The notes under the pieces: model-generated
What the model was told of the DNA's origin: nothing
Databases searched by the model: none
What the model saw: only the letters and a program-made list of their open reading frames with translations
Part shown: in pieces, positions 1 through 6,153 of the stretch
Position numbering within the stretch: the stretch's first letter is position 1
Layout of the letters: every line of letters starts with the position of its first letter
Made by a program: the position numbers and the translations under genes
NCBI GenBank assembly: GCA_024711005.1
Contig: JANJTQ010000155.1
Location: 1-34,542, forward strand
Source of the DNA: Opitutaceae bacterium
Lineage (GTDB): Bacteria > Verrucomicrobiota > Verrucomicrobiia > Opitutales > Opitutaceae
Length of the DNA stretch: 34,542 nucleotides
Direction of reading: 5' to 3'

Positions 1-1521
1 ACCGCGCTCGGTTCCATGCCCGGCAATCTGGATCTCTTCAAGATGCTCCCCATGATCGACGAACGCTGTGCGTTGCTCATGGAGGAGTTCGCCGAAGAAT
101 TCCTCACCCACGTCAACCCCTACACCGGCCTCGCCTATGGCAACGACCCCCAGGTGATCTCGTTGGAGTTCATGAACGAGCACTCCTCCGAATACGCCAT
201 CGTCGCGGGCAACAAATTTCAAAGCACCTCGTATCCGGCGGTCTCCTACTGGACCACCGCCCTGCAAAACCAGTGGAACGCCTATGCCACCGCGCATGGC
301 GTTGCGACCTGCGACATCTATGCCCCGTCCACCACGGCGCAGAAGCTCGCGCGCGGCGATTTTCTGCGCGGCCTCGATGCGGCGTATTTCAACCGCATGA
401 AAAGCCACGTGAACGGACTCAGCTGCCAGAAACCCGTCATGCTCTCCAATCTCTGGCGCGGAGAAGCCTTTCAAAAACAGCAGGAGCAGCTCTCCGACCT
501 CATCGAAGACCACTCTTACGGCGACCCGTTTGTCCCTCGGGCCGCGGATGATATCTTCAACATGACCAGCCGCTCCACCCCGACGGGCAAGCCTTACATT
601 ATCGGCGAACTGAATCAGTCCACCAACACGTCATCCATCACCGCCAACTCCCGCTACCGGACCACGCTTCCGGTGGCGGCGGCCGTTTATGGGACCTTCA
701 ACGACTGGAGCGGAGTCGTTTGGTACGCCTGGTCGCATGGCGACTCCAAAACCGGCTCCGACGGCTGGGCGACCGTCGAAGAACGCACGCCCGCCTCCAC
801 CTCCGACCGCATCGGCCAGATCCAATGCGACGGCATGATGCTCGATCACATGCGCACCACCGGAATCATTTTTCGCCGCGGCCTCGTCATTCCCAGTTAC
901 TCCCCGAAAACCCTTTACGCCGACGATCCCCTGGGCACCACCGGCTACACCGGCCTGATGTCGCCCAAATACCAGTTCGTGCCCGGCTGGCAGTCGGTTC
1001 ACGCGATCCGCCGCGCCTTCGGCACCGTGCCCTCATCGCAGCCGACCGCCTTTTGGATGACCACCACTCCGGTCAGCCCGCTCGTCTCGGACACCGGTCA
1101 GATCAGCAAGGACACCGTGCGTCAGCAGCTCACGCTCAGCACCGCGCATGCCGAGGCCTTCAGCGGAAACGTCGACACGCTCGCACCGGCCGGCCTGACC
1201 CGCATCGGCTTGGTGAGCACCAGCGGTTTCGCCACCGTCGTGCTCACGGCCGACGACGGAAAGCCTCTTTCGTCCAGCGCGGAGCTCGTCATCAGCCGCA
1301 CCTACCTCGACAGCTCCGGAGTCGAACGCGTCAATCAGTCGACCACGGTCGCCGGTCTGAAGGCTCCGGCTTACAACTTTGTGTGGCACTTCAAGACGAC
1401 CCGTCCCCGCGGTGGCCCCGGCACCTATCAAGTCCTCACCCCCTCCGGCGGCGTGCTCACGCTCCCCTCGACCGATTGGCACGAGGGCGAACTCAAATAC
1501 GCGCAACTTGGAACGCTCTGA
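1..1521 (+). CDS. Secreted clan GH-A (GH5-like) glycosidase, 5'-truncated by the window
   Basis: The reading frame is open from base 1, so the N-terminus and any signal peptide lie outside the window; 506 residues are visible. The protein is a clear paralogue of the complete enzyme at 4076-6052: both share the stretches INxMLPxIDER-like, LTHVNP.TGL, DPQVIS and HMRTTG.IFRRGL. The probable acid/base glutamate is in MNEH (visible residue 60) and the probable nucleophile in IGELNQ (visible residue 203), the two-glutamate arrangement expected for retaining clan GH-A glycosidases. After the barrel there is a C-terminal beta-rich part ending in TRPRGGPGTY and WHEGEL, matching the paralogue. Substrate is not readable from the sequence. 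It is the only rightward gene in the first 8 kb and ends next to palindromes. Exact GH family is an inference; a GH39-like or unclassified 'cellulase family' assignment is also possible. Confidence 0.82.
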   Translation, partial: TALGSMPGNLDLFKMLPMIDERCALLMEEFAEEFLTHVNPYTGLAYGNDPQVISLEFMNEHSSEYAIVAGNKFQSTSYPAVSYWTTALQNQWNAYATAHGVATCDIYAPSTTAQKLARGDFLRGLDAAYFNRMKSHVNGLSCQKPVMLSNLWRGEAFQKQQEQLSDLIEDHSYGDPFVPRAADDIFNMTSRSTPTGKPYIIGELNQSTNTSSITANSRYRTTLPVAAAVYGTFNDWSGVVWYAWSHGDSKTGSDGWATVEERTPASTSDRIGQIQCDGMMLDHMRTTGIIFRRGLVIPSYSPKTLYADDPLGTTGYTGLMSPKYQFVPGWQSVHAIRRAFGTVPSSQPTAFWMTTTPVSPLVSDTGQISKDTVRQQLTLSTAHAEAFSGNVDTLAPAGLTRIGLVSTSGFATVVLTADDGKPLSSSAELVISRTYLDSSGVERVNQSTTVAGLKAPAYNFVWHFKTTRPRGGPGTYQVLTPSGGVLTLPSTDWHEGELKYAQLGTL

Positions 1522-1576: not shown

Positions 1577-1616
1577 GGTGCACAAGTATGTTCCGGCCGG
1601 AACACACTTGTGCACC
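1577..1616. repeat. 40-bp palindrome, copy 1
   Basis: Two 20-bp arms meet without a loop at a GGCC centre (core GTTCCGGCCGGAAC). The arms match at 19 of 20 positions. The outer arm reads GGTGCACAAGTATGTTCCGG. It lies 55 bp past the stop of the glycosidase gene. No T-run follows on either strand, so it is not a canonical intrinsic terminator. Confidence 0.9.
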
Positions 1617-1754
1617 AGCTCGATCAACGTACACGCCTGAAATCGGCGAAAGTTCTCCAAACGATCACTCGGTCGCCCTCGGTTCGGAACGGCGGAAGAT
1701 CGTGCAACGCCTCCACTCGGCACGTGGCATCAATTCCCTACGTTAAATCGCGGC

Positions 1755-1798
1755 GTGATGCACAACTATGTTCCGGCCGGAACATAGTTGTGCATCAC
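1755..1798. repeat. 44-bp perfect palindrome, copy 2
   Basis: All 22 bases of one arm pair with the other. Compared with the other copies, the outer AAGTATG is changed to AACTATG and the opposite arm carries the complementary change (CATAGTT), so the dyad is preserved. It begins 5 bp beyond the stop codon of the leftward PaaX-like gene. It could be an operator, a cruciform-forming site or a transcript-end hairpin; no T-run follows. Confidence 0.93.
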
Positions 1799-1803
1799 CC
1801 GAA

Positions 1804-2595
1804 TCACTGCGTCCGTCTCAGGTCGGCGGCCAGCGTGCACAGCAGGTCGATGCGCTGAGACCAGCATTTTCGCCCTGCGTAGCCGGCCGGCAGCAATGGC
1901 TCCGGCAAAAACGGATCGGCCTCCACCGCAGAAGCCCAGGCCAAACGCTCGCGCTGCGCCCAATGCCTCACCGCCTTCCATGTCGTCTCGCCTCCCGACC
2001 GAATACGTGGAGCCTGTCCCGCCACCTTTGCCCAGGCATCGTAGCGTTGCTGCACCGCGCCGAAGGCCCACGCTCCGCTCACCAGGTCCTGATCCGACTC
2101 GCCTCCCGCCGGTCTACCCTCAAAGAGCGTCAACGACTCAACGTCGACGCGTGCCCCGGCAAACTTCCCTGCGTGAACATCAAACGAGTCAGGCGATAAC
2201 CATACACTGTTCTGGAGGTAACCGAATTTCAGGTCCTTGAGCACCCGCCTTAGTTTCACCCGTTGCCTGTTCAGGTTCTCCGGCAGGTCAAACATCACCA
2301 ACCGCCACCGCCCGTCCCAAGGACGCCCCCACGCCGCCACCGGATCAACGCCGCCCAGCGCGACAATCCTGCCGGTTTCCGTGAGCTTGCAGACACGTTC
2401 GTCCGGGGCCGTTTCCTTATCGGCCGCCTGCCTTTCGAGAAACTGTTCGCGCTCCAGAATCTGCAGACGGCGCCCCAAGCCGTTCCGAAACGCCCATTGC
2501 TCGAACGAGCCGGTCATGTTGCTCAACGTGGGACGCATCAGCGTGTCCGCGCTCCACATCAAAAAATAGAGAAACTCCTCCGTGCTGGCTTTCAT
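1804..2595 (-). CDS. PaaX-like transcriptional regulator
   Basis: A 263-residue protein matching the PaaX layout. An N-terminal winged helix (about residues 10-70) is followed by a Cas2-like central domain with WRLVMFDLPE, a run of R..RV.LRRVLK and the signature FGYLQNSVWLSP, then a C-terminal PaaX_C-like part with DPFLPEPLLPAGYAG. The known PaaX represses phenylacetate catabolism genes and is released by phenylacetyl-CoA, but many distant family members have no known ligand, and no phenylacetate genes are visible here. The start at MKASTEEF is chosen because upstream in-frame codons run through the palindrome at 2626-2669 and because the same MKAST start is conserved in the duplicated fragment at 2858. 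Palindromes of one family flank both ends of the gene, suggesting autoregulation or a DNA-level role. No good ribosome binding site is seen. Confidence 0.85.
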   Translation of the reverse strand: MKASTEEFLYFLMWSADTLMRPTLSNMTGSFEQWAFRNGLGRRLQILEREQFLERQAADKETAPDERVCKLTETGRIVALGGVDPVAAWGRPWDGRWRLVMFDLPENLNRQRVKLRRVLKDLKFGYLQNSVWLSPDSFDVHAGKFAGARVDVESLTLFEGRPAGGESDQDLVSGAWAFGAVQQRYDAWAKVAGQAPRIRSGGETTWKAVRHWAQRERLAWASAVEADPFLPEPLLPAGYAGRKCWSQRIDLLCTLAADLRRTQ

Positions 2596-2799
2596 GCGCC
2601 AAACCTGCCCTTCACCCAAAATGTGTCGATGCACAAGTATGTTCCGACCGGAACACACTTGTGCATCGAAATGGACGGATCGCAGATCGGTTCCAGCCCG
2701 ACGCTTTTGGTCCACGGCCGCCACCCCGCCTTCGCGCGCAGCGCCCAGCGGGTCGGACTCGGTTCTTCCTCAAGCGTGAAGGGTATTTCGCAGGAATGG
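2537..2799. repeat. Tandem duplication, unit A (263 bp)
   Basis: Approximate limits. This unit contains, on the minus strand, a relic of the 3' end of the oxidoreductase gene (bases about 2700-2790, reading LEEEPSPTRWALRAKAG), the palindrome at 2626-2669 and the real start of the PaaX-like gene. Its partner unit follows directly. Matching landmarks (CAT of the MKAST start at 2593 and 2856; GTCGATGCACAAG at 2625 and 2887) are 262-263 bp apart. Confidence 0.85.
2626..2669. repeat. 44-bp imperfect palindrome, copy 3
   Basis: Two 22-bp arms (TCGATGCACAAGTATGTTCC-type) pair at 20 of 22 positions. It lies 31-74 bp upstream of the PaaX-like start codon, where an operator or promoter element would be expected. 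Confidence 0.9.
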
Positions 2800-3062
2800 A
2801 TCAGTTTGTCCGCGCCCCACCTCAGGAAATAGACGAACTTCCCTGTGCTGGCTTTCATGTGCCAAGCCTGCCCTCCACCGAAATCTGTCGATGCACAAGT
2901 GTGTTCCGACCGGAACACTCTTGTGCATCGACGGGATGGATCCCAGATCGGGGCCGTCCCGACGCTTTTAGTCCACGACCGCCACACCCGCCTTTGCGCG
3001 CAGCGCCCAGCGGGTCGGACTCAGCTCTTCCTCCAACGAGAGGGGCATTTCGACCGAACCGG
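2800..3062. repeat. Tandem duplication, unit B (263 bp)
   Basis: Approximate limits. It contains the functional 3' end of the oxidoreductase gene (LSLEEELSPTRWALRAKAG), the palindrome at 2888-2931 and a dead copy of the PaaX-like start (minus strand from 2858, reading MKASTGKFVYFLRWGADKL) that runs directly into unit A's oxidoreductase relic. The copies have diverged to roughly three-quarters identity by eye, so the event is not recent. Confidence 0.85.
2888..2931. repeat. 44-bp imperfect palindrome, copy 4
   Basis: Arms pair at 20 of 22 positions around CCGACCGG. It stands between the oxidoreductase stop (2968, minus strand) and the dead PaaX-like start copy at 2858, the same relative position as copy 3 in unit A. 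Confidence 0.9.
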
Positions 3063-3984
3063 TCAGCAGTCCTAAATACGCATCCAAATAAGCGATACCG
3101 GGACCGTTCGGGATCAGTGGTCCGTGGTCGGTCCCTCCGATCGCGAGCCGCGTATGCGCGCCGCCTTGCGTCGATTCCACCATGCCGCGCTCACCCAGGA
3201 TTCGCAGCGTCTCGTAGCCCCACACGCCCGTGCCACCTGGGTTCAGATAGTTGGCGGTGATCGACGCAAGTCCACCGCCTTCAAGTTCCATCATCAGGCA
3301 GGCCGCCATTCGCAATCCACCGTCGCCCGACGGGTTGCCCGCCGTGGTTTCCAGGGCCCGCACCGAGCATATCCGCACGTCGGCGACATGCTCGACGAAC
3401 CGCACCGCATGCACCCCGCATTGCAGGAGAAGCCCGCCGTCCACCTCCTCGTCGCGCGGGCGCCAGTTTTTAAACGGATAAGATTTTTCCGCGATAACCT
3501 GCACCACCCGGCCGATTTTCCCCGAGCGCACCACCTCGCGCATCGTAAAATAGGGTTGTTCAAAAGCCGTCCCCGCCATCTCTCGGAAATGGCGGCCGGT
3601 CTCCCTGGCAACGGCCAGAATTTCGTCCAACTCGACCTCGCTCAACGCACACGGCTTCTCCGCATACACATGCCGCCCGGCCCGCAACGCGCGAATCGCA
3701 TGCGCAGCCTGCTCGCGACGCCGCGGCGAACACAACACCACCAAATCGACACGCGGGTCCCGCAGCAACGTAGTGAGATCCGAATACTCCTTCACCTCGG
3801 AGCAGCCGCGCAGCGGAAGCGGCAGCTTGCCACGCGGAAACTCCGCGATAGCAACCAGGCGCGCCAGCGGGTGATCCACCAGACACTCGTGAACCTGATG
3901 CCCGTTGTCGCCATACAGGGCGACGCCGAGACGGCGTTTCGTGGCGATATGAGTGCCGTCCGGCGGCGAGCTAAGGTCGGTCAT
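2968..3984 (-). CDS. Gfo/Idh/MocA-family oxidoreductase
   Basis: The 338-residue length is typical of this NAD(P)-dependent sugar/inositol dehydrogenase family. An N-terminal Rossmann region (GVALYGDNGHQ, then ARLVAIAEF) lacks the classic GxGxxG spacing, which is unusual. VDLVVLCSP and HVYAEKPCALS follow; EKP carries the conserved lysine. The second alpha/beta domain has GKIGRVVQV and GLLLQCGVHAVRF, a variant of the G.l.D.G.H motif. The substrate is unknown, probably a sugar or polyol released by neighbouring glycosidases. The start ATG has only A-rich sequence ahead of it. The last 25 codons are partly repeated downstream in the 263-bp duplication. It is leftward, 91 bp after the glycosidase gene and separated from it by a REP-like element. 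Confidence 0.88.
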   Translation of the reverse strand: MTDLSSPPDGTHIATKRRLGVALYGDNGHQVHECLVDHPLARLVAIAEFPRGKLPLPLRGCSEVKEYSDLTTLLRDPRVDLVVLCSPRRREQAAHAIRALRAGRHVYAEKPCALSEVELDEILAVARETGRHFREMAGTAFEQPYFTMREVVRSGKIGRVVQVIAEKSYPFKNWRPRDEEVDGGLLLQCGVHAVRFVEHVADVRICSVRALETTAGNPSGDGGLRMAACLMMELEGGGLASITANYLNPGGTGVWGYETLRILGERGMVESTQGGAHTRLAIGGTDHGPLIPNGPGIAYLDAYLGLLTGSVEMPLSLEEELSPTRWALRAKAGVAVVD

Positions 3985-4075: not shown

Positions 4076-6052
4076 TCAGAGTTTTTGCACGCTCAGTTCA
4101 CCCTCGTGCCAACCGCCTGCTGGCAATGTCAGACGTCCGCCTTCGGCTGCCGTGACCGGAAGCTTTTTGCCGGCGTCGGCGCGGGGGCGCGTGATGGTGA
4201 ACGTCCACCCCTTTCCTTCGGGCGCGGGCGCGAGTCCTTGCAAGGTGATCCGCGAGGCGTCGGTCTCCTTGCCCGCCGCGTCCAACGCCGTACGGCTGAG
4301 AATAAGCCGTTCGGTTTGATCGAGTTCTTTTCCGTCATCCGTCACCGCGATCACGGTGGCGAATGCTGCTTCGCTCACGCCGAGGTGCTTTAAGCCGGCC
4401 GGAGCCTTGTCGTCGAGGAAGCCACTGAAGGCCTCGGTTTGCGGCGCGGTCACGGTGAGTTGGCGGCGTTCGACATCTTTCACGATTTCACCCGTGTCGG
4501 AAACGATCGGCGAGGGGGCCGGCGCGGTCATCCACGGCGCGGTCGCTTGATCGGCGGGCACCGAGCCATAGGAACGGCGAATCGCATGGACATTCACCCA
4601 GCCGGGCTGGGCGTCATATTTGCCACGCATGAGCGGATGGTAACCGGCGACTGCAAACGGCTCATCGGTCCAGACCGTCACGGGAGCCTTGCTCCGAGCC
4701 ACCAAACCGCGGCGAAAAATCATCCCGGTGGTGCGCATGTGATCGATCATCATGCCGTCGGAAACCATGCCGCCGATGTTGGAGGTGCGGCGCTCATAAC
4801 GAGCCCAGCCGTCTTCTCCCGTGCCGACGTCTTCGCCGTGCATCCAGGCAAACCACACGAGGCCGGTCCAGTTGTTGAACGAGCCGTAAGCGGCCGATGC
4901 GAGGGGCAACATCGTGCGGTGCGGCGACTGCTTGGCGATGTTATCACCGCCCTCGGACTGGTTGAGTTCGCCAATGAAAAAGGGTTTGTCCACGAGCGCG
5001 GTCCGGCCGGCCTTGGCCAGTCCATCCGCGACGCCGCGGGCGACGAGCGGGTCGATGTAGGCGTGATTTTCGATGAAGTCGGCCTGGCGCTCGTGCATCG
5101 CGAGGGTGTCGTCGCCTTGCCAGAGATTGGAGAACGTCATCGGCGCCTGACTGCCGGCGGCGCGGACCGCCGCTTTGATGCGTTTGAAGTAAGCCTCGTC
5201 CAACTCGGTGAGGAACTTCGCGCGCAACGCGATCACTTCGGGCGTGGACGGTTTGTAGAGATCGCCGGGTCCGATGGCGACCGAGGCGGCGGCGGCGTAA
5301 TCGTGCCAGCGTTTCTCGAAGCGGCTCTGCCAATAGTCGGGCAGGCGGTGCATGCAAATGATCGAGTATTGGAGGGCGTGCTCATTGACAACTTCCATGC
5401 TGATAACCTGCGGGTCCTCGGCGTAGGAGAGGCCGGTGTGCGGATTGACGTGCGTGAGGAGCTTGTGGACGAATTCCTCGTTCAAGAGCGCGGCACGTTC
5501 GTCGATCACCGGGAGAAGTTTCCGGATGTCGAAGCTCTTCTTCCAATGCCAGGTGTTGAGTTCGGCGACGGCGGCGGCCCAGCCCTCGTTGTCGGCCGCA
5601 TCAACCTTCAAGATGTCAGCGTCACCGGGTCGATAGGCGCGGGTGAAATGGGCGGAGAGCGCGAGATAGATACCGTGCTTGCGCAAAGCGGCGTTGAGGT
5701 AGTCGAAACGATCAAGCGCGACCGGGTCGAACTCGCGCGAGGTGCCCTCGTAGGTCACCAACGCACCACTGACCATGTTGGGATTCCAGTCCTTGCTCGG
5801 ACGCAGGTTGTGATGCGGACGCACCAGATTGACGCCGAGGTCGGCGAGATTTTTCGCATAGGCGTCGGCGCGACCGTGATCCGGATAACTGGCGACCATG
5901 TTGACGCCCCAGAAGCGCACCGGTTTGCCGTCGGGCGCATGGTAGTCGGCTCCCTTGATCGTCAGCGGCACGATGGGATCGGACGCGCCGGGTGCGGCGG
6001 AAAGAGAGAGTGCGGAAACCGCGAAAAGGGCGAAAGAGACGACGCGAGACAT
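4076..6052 (-). CDS. Secreted clan GH-A (GH5-like) glycosidase
   Basis: A protein of 658 residues with a signal peptide (VVSFALFAVSALSLSAAPG), so probably exported. The (beta/alpha)8 domain starts with KPVRFWGVNMV and has NLADLGVNLVRPHHN, both typical of GH5/GH-A enzymes. Probable acid/base is E224 in VVNEH and probable nucleophile E362 in FIGELNQ; HAY (before the second glutamate) may form part of the active site. A beta-rich C-terminal region ends with ITRPRADAG and WHEGELS. It is a paralogue of the partial gene at 1-1521. The start was placed at MSRVVSF; an in-frame ATG at 6082 adds ten residues (PPLPTRFAP) and cannot be excluded. It lies 101 bp after the CBM-like gene and may be co-transcribed with it. 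Substrate not determined. Confidence 0.88.
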   Translation of the reverse strand: MSRVVSFALFAVSALSLSAAPGASDPIVPLTIKGADYHAPDGKPVRFWGVNMVASYPDHGRADAYAKNLADLGVNLVRPHHNLRPSKDWNPNMVSGALVTYEGTSREFDPVALDRFDYLNAALRKHGIYLALSAHFTRAYRPGDADILKVDAADNEGWAAAVAELNTWHWKKSFDIRKLLPVIDERAALLNEEFVHKLLTHVNPHTGLSYAEDPQVISMEVVNEHALQYSIICMHRLPDYWQSRFEKRWHDYAAAASVAIGPGDLYKPSTPEVIALRAKFLTELDEAYFKRIKAAVRAAGSQAPMTFSNLWQGDDTLAMHERQADFIENHAYIDPLVARGVADGLAKAGRTALVDKPFFIGELNQSEGGDNIAKQSPHRTMLPLASAAYGSFNNWTGLVWFAWMHGEDVGTGEDGWARYERRTSNIGGMVSDGMMIDHMRTTGMIFRRGLVARSKAPVTVWTDEPFAVAGYHPLMRGKYDAQPGWVNVHAIRRSYGSVPADQATAPWMTAPAPSPIVSDTGEIVKDVERRQLTVTAPQTEAFSGFLDDKAPAGLKHLGVSEAAFATVIAVTDDGKELDQTERLILSRTALDAAGKETDASRITLQGLAPAPEGKGWTFTITRPRADAGKKLPVTAAEGGRLTLPAGGWHEGELSVQKL

Positions 6053-6153
6053 GGGGGCGAAACGGGTTGGAAGTGGAGGCATCGGGGCACGAAACGAGAA
6101 CGCGGTCGTGTTTCCACGACCGCGAACGCGGATTCGGACCTGTTTGGCTGGAA

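Follow-up and report, generated by a model that had tools for sequence, protein, structure and literature searches.

Dispersed palindromes cognate to PaaX-like genes in Verrucomicrobiota: a REPIN/RAYT-like arrangement with a putative Cas2-fold partner

PaaX-like genes of Verrucomicrobiota are each paired with a palindrome of their own, and these palindromes are dispersed as repeats; the repeats form a family of elements, one doublet of which has an empty site in congeners. The most convincing account, given a probability of about 0.55, is that they are REPIN/RAYT-like dispersed palindromes whose partner is a protein of the PaaX/Cas2 fold, not a tyrosine transposase, and that this protein is predicted to move the repeats. 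The proposed repeat-moving role is the best single account of the two-sided flanking of the gene, the private palindromes, the empty site, the REP-like placement and the retained Cas2-type site. Binding of the protein to its palindrome is strongly suggested; that it also cuts DNA or transfers strands through residue D103, and so spreads or homogenises the repeats, is put forward more tentatively.

The PaaX-like gene and its four palindromes

The window, i.e. the whole stretch of 34,542 nucleotides that was analysed, comes from an Opitutaceae MAG (G000; 5.0 Mb, 351 contigs) that shares its genus with the Rariglobus MAG G004. It holds four palindromes around one PaaX-like gene:

1577..1616, no strand: palindrome copy 1, two 20-bp arms (95% paired) around a GGCC centre; the outer of the two copies 3' of the PaaX-like gene
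1755..1798, no strand: palindrome copy 2, arms of 22, perfect over 44 bp without a loop; 3' flank, its end 5 bp from the PaaX-like stop codon
1804..2595, minus strand: PaaX-like protein, 263 aa; Pfam PaaX_M (E 1.7e-18) and PaaX_C (E 0.001)
2530..2804, no strand: duplication unit 1, with the paaX-like 5' end, a palindrome and the end of an oxidoreductase-like sequence (repeat families D2, D3 and D5)
2626..2669, no strand: palindrome copy 3, arms of 21-22, 95% paired, 2-nt centre; 5' flank of the PaaX-like gene
2793..3066, no strand: duplication unit 2, with the shortened 5' end of a PaaX-like gene (minus strand, ATG at 2858) and the genuine end of the oxidoreductase gene
2887..2932, no strand: palindrome copy 4, arms of 21-22, 95% paired, 2-nt centre; within the second unit of the 262-bp tandem duplication
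2968..3984, minus strand: Gfo/Idh/MocA-type oxidoreductase, adjoining the PaaX-like unit

A sequence-only reading of this DNA had described the four palindromes, and both their existence and their coordinates are right. It had seen no copies elsewhere in the window; the 36-bp pattern indeed matches only these four places across it, with 0 matches in shuffles. The compensated change described for the copy at 1755 (AAG to AAC in one arm, CTT to GTT in the other) is also real. All four copies are present, but those at 2626 and 2888 are not independent: both stem from a single 262-bp tandem duplication, which contains the oxidoreductase 3' end, a palindrome and the PaaX-like gene's initial codons. 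Copy 3 has its centre about 52 bp upstream of the PaaX-like ATG, the same position as in most homologous loci. As a result of the duplication (window 2530-3066), a shortened PaaX-like 5' end stands upstream of the PaaX-like gene itself.

The absence of T-runs had been taken to speak against plain terminators, and terminator-like sites (a GC-rich hairpin followed by a T run) are found at 0 of the 4. Rfam 15 structured RNAs give 0 matches at gathering score in the window. Intrinsic terminators and known RNA families are ruled out by these zero matches.

The oxidoreductase neighbours the PaaX-like gene in G004 too. In the congener G001, at the empty-site comparison for the PaaX-like unit, the oxidoreductase is present and the surrounding synteny absent. 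A related gene pair lies inverted, with one member on each side of the PaaX-like unit (16-1521, plus strand; 4076-6082, minus strand); the two are similar at 71% over 156 bp and 85% over 72 bp, and have no Pfam match.

Private palindromes at homologous loci

Nine of the 273 genomes searched across the order carry a PaaX-like gene, and most of the genes in these nine are flanked by palindromes unrelated in sequence. A wider search, with a peptide pattern requiring the LQ.S.W motif, gave 75 loci, all in MAGs or genomes that are unlabelled or bear the label Verrucomicrobiota or Kiritimatiellota. Among genes with enough flank, a palindrome of about 36 bp with at least 13 of 17 pairs lies upstream in 53 of 72 and downstream in 53 of 71; both sides are occupied in 42 of 71 and at least one side in 63 of 71. 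Such a palindrome occurs in only 0.8-1.0% of equally sized random windows, and palindrome density at the gene flanks is about 200 times that outside them. Whether copies adjoin PaaX-like genes in relatives had been proposed as a check; at homologous loci the link is strongly upheld (63/71 flanked).

Aligned by their centres, the palindromes have a common core, TGTYNCRNNYGNRACA, and outer arms that vary by clade. Each gene has a version of its own: over 36 bases, copies at one gene differ by 4.7 and those of different genes by 19.7, the distance between palindromes correlates with that between proteins (Mantel r 0.56, 0/2000 permutations), and paralogues within one genome have different palindromes each. 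Asymmetric centres are oppositely oriented on the two sides of several genes, not all (e.g. CACCTG upstream and CAGGTG downstream). Two loci, L057 (G064:C102) and L059 (G076:C238), hold truncated or broken PaaX-like copies, of which the G064 one has an upstream palindrome. No relatives of the gene were found in phages or viral contigs, and plasmids gave three remote PaaX matches.

Association at the genome level was assessed with a covariance model built from 33 palindromes. It matches in 14 of 18 genomes with the gene (the four gene-positive genomes with no match count against the repeat-moving role) and in 0 of 14 without it; the model was drawn partly from palindromes beside these genes, so that matches in carriers are partly circular while the zero in non-carriers is not. 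For the evenly drawn order set, matches occur in 4 of 9 gene-positive and 0 of 264 negative genomes (Fisher 5.6e-7, indicative only, as the genomes are not phylogenetically independent). Hundreds of copies unlinked to PaaX-like genes had been named as the outcome that would refute the association. This is not what is seen: copies were found only in gene-bearing genomes, though most of them do not adjoin the gene.

The main rival is pure autoregulation. On this view the PaaX-like protein would act as a repressor with the flanking palindromes as operators; the dispersed copies would be either regulon operators or inert sequences otherwise spread. The protein matches PaaX over its whole length, and PaaX represses its own promoter via a 39-bp inverted site; the site reported for E. 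coli PaaX, TGATTC(N27)GAATCA, has that span (PMC9493321). The upstream palindrome, too, is placed almost constantly: in many loci its centre stands 51-57 bp ahead of the start codon. A copy just past the stop codon is, however, as common as the upstream copy, and together with the evidence on dispersal given below this leaves autoregulation alone a possible but rather doubtful explanation. The earlier remark that these would be operators "much longer than usual" is itself questionable in view of the 39-bp span in E. coli (PMC9493321). Regulation of the PaaX-like gene through the upstream copy may well go on alongside the moving of repeats.

Dispersed copies and their genomic placement

G000 has a single PaaX-like gene and about 29 palindrome copies, of which only four adjoin the gene. 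This number is approximate because a repeat (C11, C12, C322) breaks the assembly: C11 and C12 begin with nearly the same ~400 bp (C11:1-400 and C12:1-400, near-identical, with two palindrome copies inside), and C322 ends in the same ~400 bp. Many copies are paired as doublets, their starts 66-81 bp apart, each of the two arm types occurring once, in order. The spacers of the G000 doublets have no common sequence, and these copies are therefore old, a point against the repeat-moving role.

The nearest carrier, the congener G004 (Rariglobus sp.), has 4 copies: a pair around its PaaX-like gene, a third inside rsmE and the fourth just past rsmE. Its gene lacks about 30 N-terminal residues, and a palindrome abuts the remainder. 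That the genome with this shortened gene has only 4 copies speaks for the repeat-moving role. With up to 3 mismatches allowed, the palindrome pattern gave 0 matches in 35 other relatives.

Insertion sites were compared in 12 congeners with flanking genes as anchors. At the C35 doublet of G000, a stretch of about 180 bp is precisely absent from G004, G009, G010 and G011. A possible short repeat, CACGTCTYC, stands at both ends of this insertion (L025 5290-5490) and is a weak hint of a target duplication; no clear case of target duplication was found at the palindrome elements. The single copy upstream of ribBA in G000 likewise lies in sequence that is extra relative to G004, with ends that are not sharply defined.

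The copy in rsmE is of another kind, and it counts against the repeat-moving role. It lies in frame inside the gene in two species (G000:C219:20685, L030 4686-4721; G004:C15:18294), and at this site relatives carry coding sequence that is homologous, equally long and in the same frame; the palindrome therefore replaced, or arose in, existing sequence. Simple insertion is ruled out here, there being no indel. In G000 the left arm is of one type and the right arm of the other, and in G004 both are of one type, which suggests that conversion between palindrome copies may have taken place. Also against the repeat-moving role, no transposition event was seen, and no second near-identical copy of the PaaX-like gene unit was found within any genome.

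Several other carriers have many copies as well. The elements are best seen as a family in G297, which has 74 palindrome copies and in which nearly all doublets are exactly 76 bp apart. Across 18 of these doublets the top base accounts for 93% in the palindromes, 64% in the 40-bp spacer (shuffled 40%) and 54% in the left 40 bp. The constant 76-bp spacing might recall a CRISPR-like repeat-spacer-repeat array; this is ruled out, since the spacers are related in sequence between copies. A second doublet type in G297 (L262, L267, L268) has centres 121 bp apart, and L268 has three palindromes (76 and 121 bp).

By rough gene calls, the elements of G297 and G292 lie between convergent genes in 17 cases, tandem genes in 20 and divergent genes in 5, a distribution that fits REP elements better than operators; G000 tilts the opposite way (1:4), in a sample too small to weigh. 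Autoregulation alone is at odds with this avoidance of divergent promoters and frequent siting between convergent genes. It is also at odds with doublets that form a sequence family with common spacers and flanks and have an empty site, and with a regulon that is not conserved, congeners lacking sites at orthologous loci.

Two further explanations concern the dispersed copies. They could be chromosome-organising sites of an architectural protein, in the manner of matS or parS, which would suit tens of mostly intergenic sites for one DNA-binding protein. This is highly unlikely for a gene so patchy (9 of 273 genomes of the order), with copy numbers of 29 versus 4 between congeners and paralogues in one cell that have different sites. 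Alternatively, they could be REP elements that Y1 (RAYT-like) transposases of the same genome move, with the PaaX-like gene as a passenger: G000 has two Y1_Tnp genes, the genomic context is of REP type, and O. terrae is reported to be rich in GTAG REPs (PMC3733652). No palindrome copy lies near either Y1_Tnp gene, however, which speaks against a Y1 transposase as partner; the palindromes have no GTAG tag, and matching sequence flanks the PaaX-like gene in other genomes, so that passenger status is very improbable.

The sequence-only reading had left a choice between an operator set and a mobile palindromic unit. Its link to the PaaX-like gene stands, and dispersal and the empty site favour the mobile option; its details on long operators and on symmetry fare less well.

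The PaaX-like protein and its predicted role

The protein comprises a winged helix (residues 1-82), a Cas2-like domain (95-173, with F102, D103 and R112) and a helical C-terminal part (PaaX_C), so that at the fold level all three components of the PaaX family are present. The nearest folds to its structure model (pLDDT 88) are 3kfw and E. coli PaaX 8a39 (Z about 13), followed by Cas2 (Z up to 9.7). It does not pass as a PaaX equivalog: NCBIfam TIGR02277 scores 46.9 against a cut-off of 264.55 bits. The search for domains gave only PaaX_M, PaaX_C and weak Cas2 matches, and no Y1_Tnp domain.

All 53 of the sequences compared have F102, D103 and R112, which correspond to the Cas2-type FD...R motif, i.e. 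an aspartate ending the first strand and an arginine after it. D103 is also kept in 12 sequences found without the peptide pattern; Q128 and S130 are invariant too, but form part of that pattern. The aspartate aligns with the region of the catalytic aspartate of Cas2, and Cas2 models match the family weakly (E 1e-4 to 1e-6) and none of three canonical PaaX. D103 is absent from the four canonical proteins checked (E. coli PaaX, Rv0674 and two Rhodococcus PaaX). Against the repeat-moving role, PaaX is not known to have nuclease or strand-transfer activity or to move DNA, and Cas2 itself is not a transposase.

Compared with the PaaX repressors (E. coli PaaX, Rv0674), the family has the same fold over nearly the whole chain, and the known case has a long inverted site; it differs in its equivalog score far under the cut-off, in the invariant D103, and in its flanks, the three canonical genes checked having no flanking palindromes. 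Like the Cas2/VapD nucleases, in which and in whose relatives the role of the aspartate has been described, it has a ferredoxin-like domain with equivalents of the catalytic aspartate and arginine (PMC9510766, PMC10491678). Unlike them, it has a winged helix before this domain and a helical C-terminal one after it, and no Cas1; the likeness is one of fold, and nuclease activity is putative.

The closest parallel in organisation is the REPIN/RAYT system (REPtron) of Pseudomonas and E. coli, in which dispersed intergenic palindromes and doublets go with a single-copy partner that has cognate flanks, each partner gene having a different palindrome family (PMC3116915, PMC3733652, PMC8266576). Short, dispersed intergenic palindromes, doublets, a partner gene flanked by the cognate palindrome and a private family per gene recur here. 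The present system is not a REPIN/RAYT member, because its partner belongs to the PaaX family, has a Cas2-like domain and is not an HuH/Y1 transposase. Its palindromes are also longer (36-48 bp), without a loop or GTAG tag, and a doublet consists of two complete palindromes 66-82 bp apart.

The arms show how the site might be read. Among 26 distinct copies from G000 and G004, two-sided changes occur in 15 cells versus 7.2+-2.9 in shuffles, a modest excess; under another orientation rule, G000 alone gives 13 versus 10.6+-2.2, and the 36 distinct copies of G297 show no excess (20 versus 21.2+-3.0). Across genomes, two-sided changes occur at 15 of 16 pairs, a count that is not telling because the palindromes had been chosen for symmetry and any dimer site would show the same. 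The earlier claim that symmetry itself is kept thus has the compensated change at 1755 on its side but is weak within genomes and does not generalise well. Recognition of a single-stranded hairpin is not supported, as there is no consistent within-genome excess of compensated changes, and the pair counts, weak or negative, speak against strong hairpin selection. The arms appear to vary largely as independent half-sites, which fits double-stranded DNA with two half-sites read independently better than it fits selection for hairpin folding. Such variation is also what autoregulation, as double-stranded binding, predicts; the weak compensation does not favour cleavage of a folded single-stranded palindrome, the RAYT feature.

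For the repeat-moving role, the following steps are proposed. A dimer of the PaaX-like protein would use its winged helices to recognise two inverted half-sites, which adjoin at a core TGTYNCR-NN-YGNRACA and reach about 36 bp. The gene lies between two such sites (palindrome-gene-palindrome), and non-autonomous doublets (palindrome, about 30-45 bp, palindrome, short flanks) would spread to intergenic sites. D103, as a Cas2-type aspartate, might perform the cut or strand transfer by which repeats are spread or homogenised. A bolder version, possible though doubtful, is that a PaaX-derived protein with a working Cas2-type site cuts or joins DNA at its own long palindromes and so copies short palindromic elements through Verrucomicrobiota genomes; the Cas2 fold would then carry a transposition or repeat-writing chemistry that falls outside every known transposase class. 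No paper linking PaaX to dispersed palindromes was found in the open-access literature searched.

Were the protein to disperse the repeats, the Cas2 fold would gain a second repeat-writing role next to its part in CRISPR adaptation, and REP-like elements would have come about with two partner proteins unrelated to each other. Should it do no more than bind, a target site would still be assigned to a widespread unnamed protein family, and the many proteins, each with a private 36-bp site, would form a data set for the evolution of winged-helix specificity.
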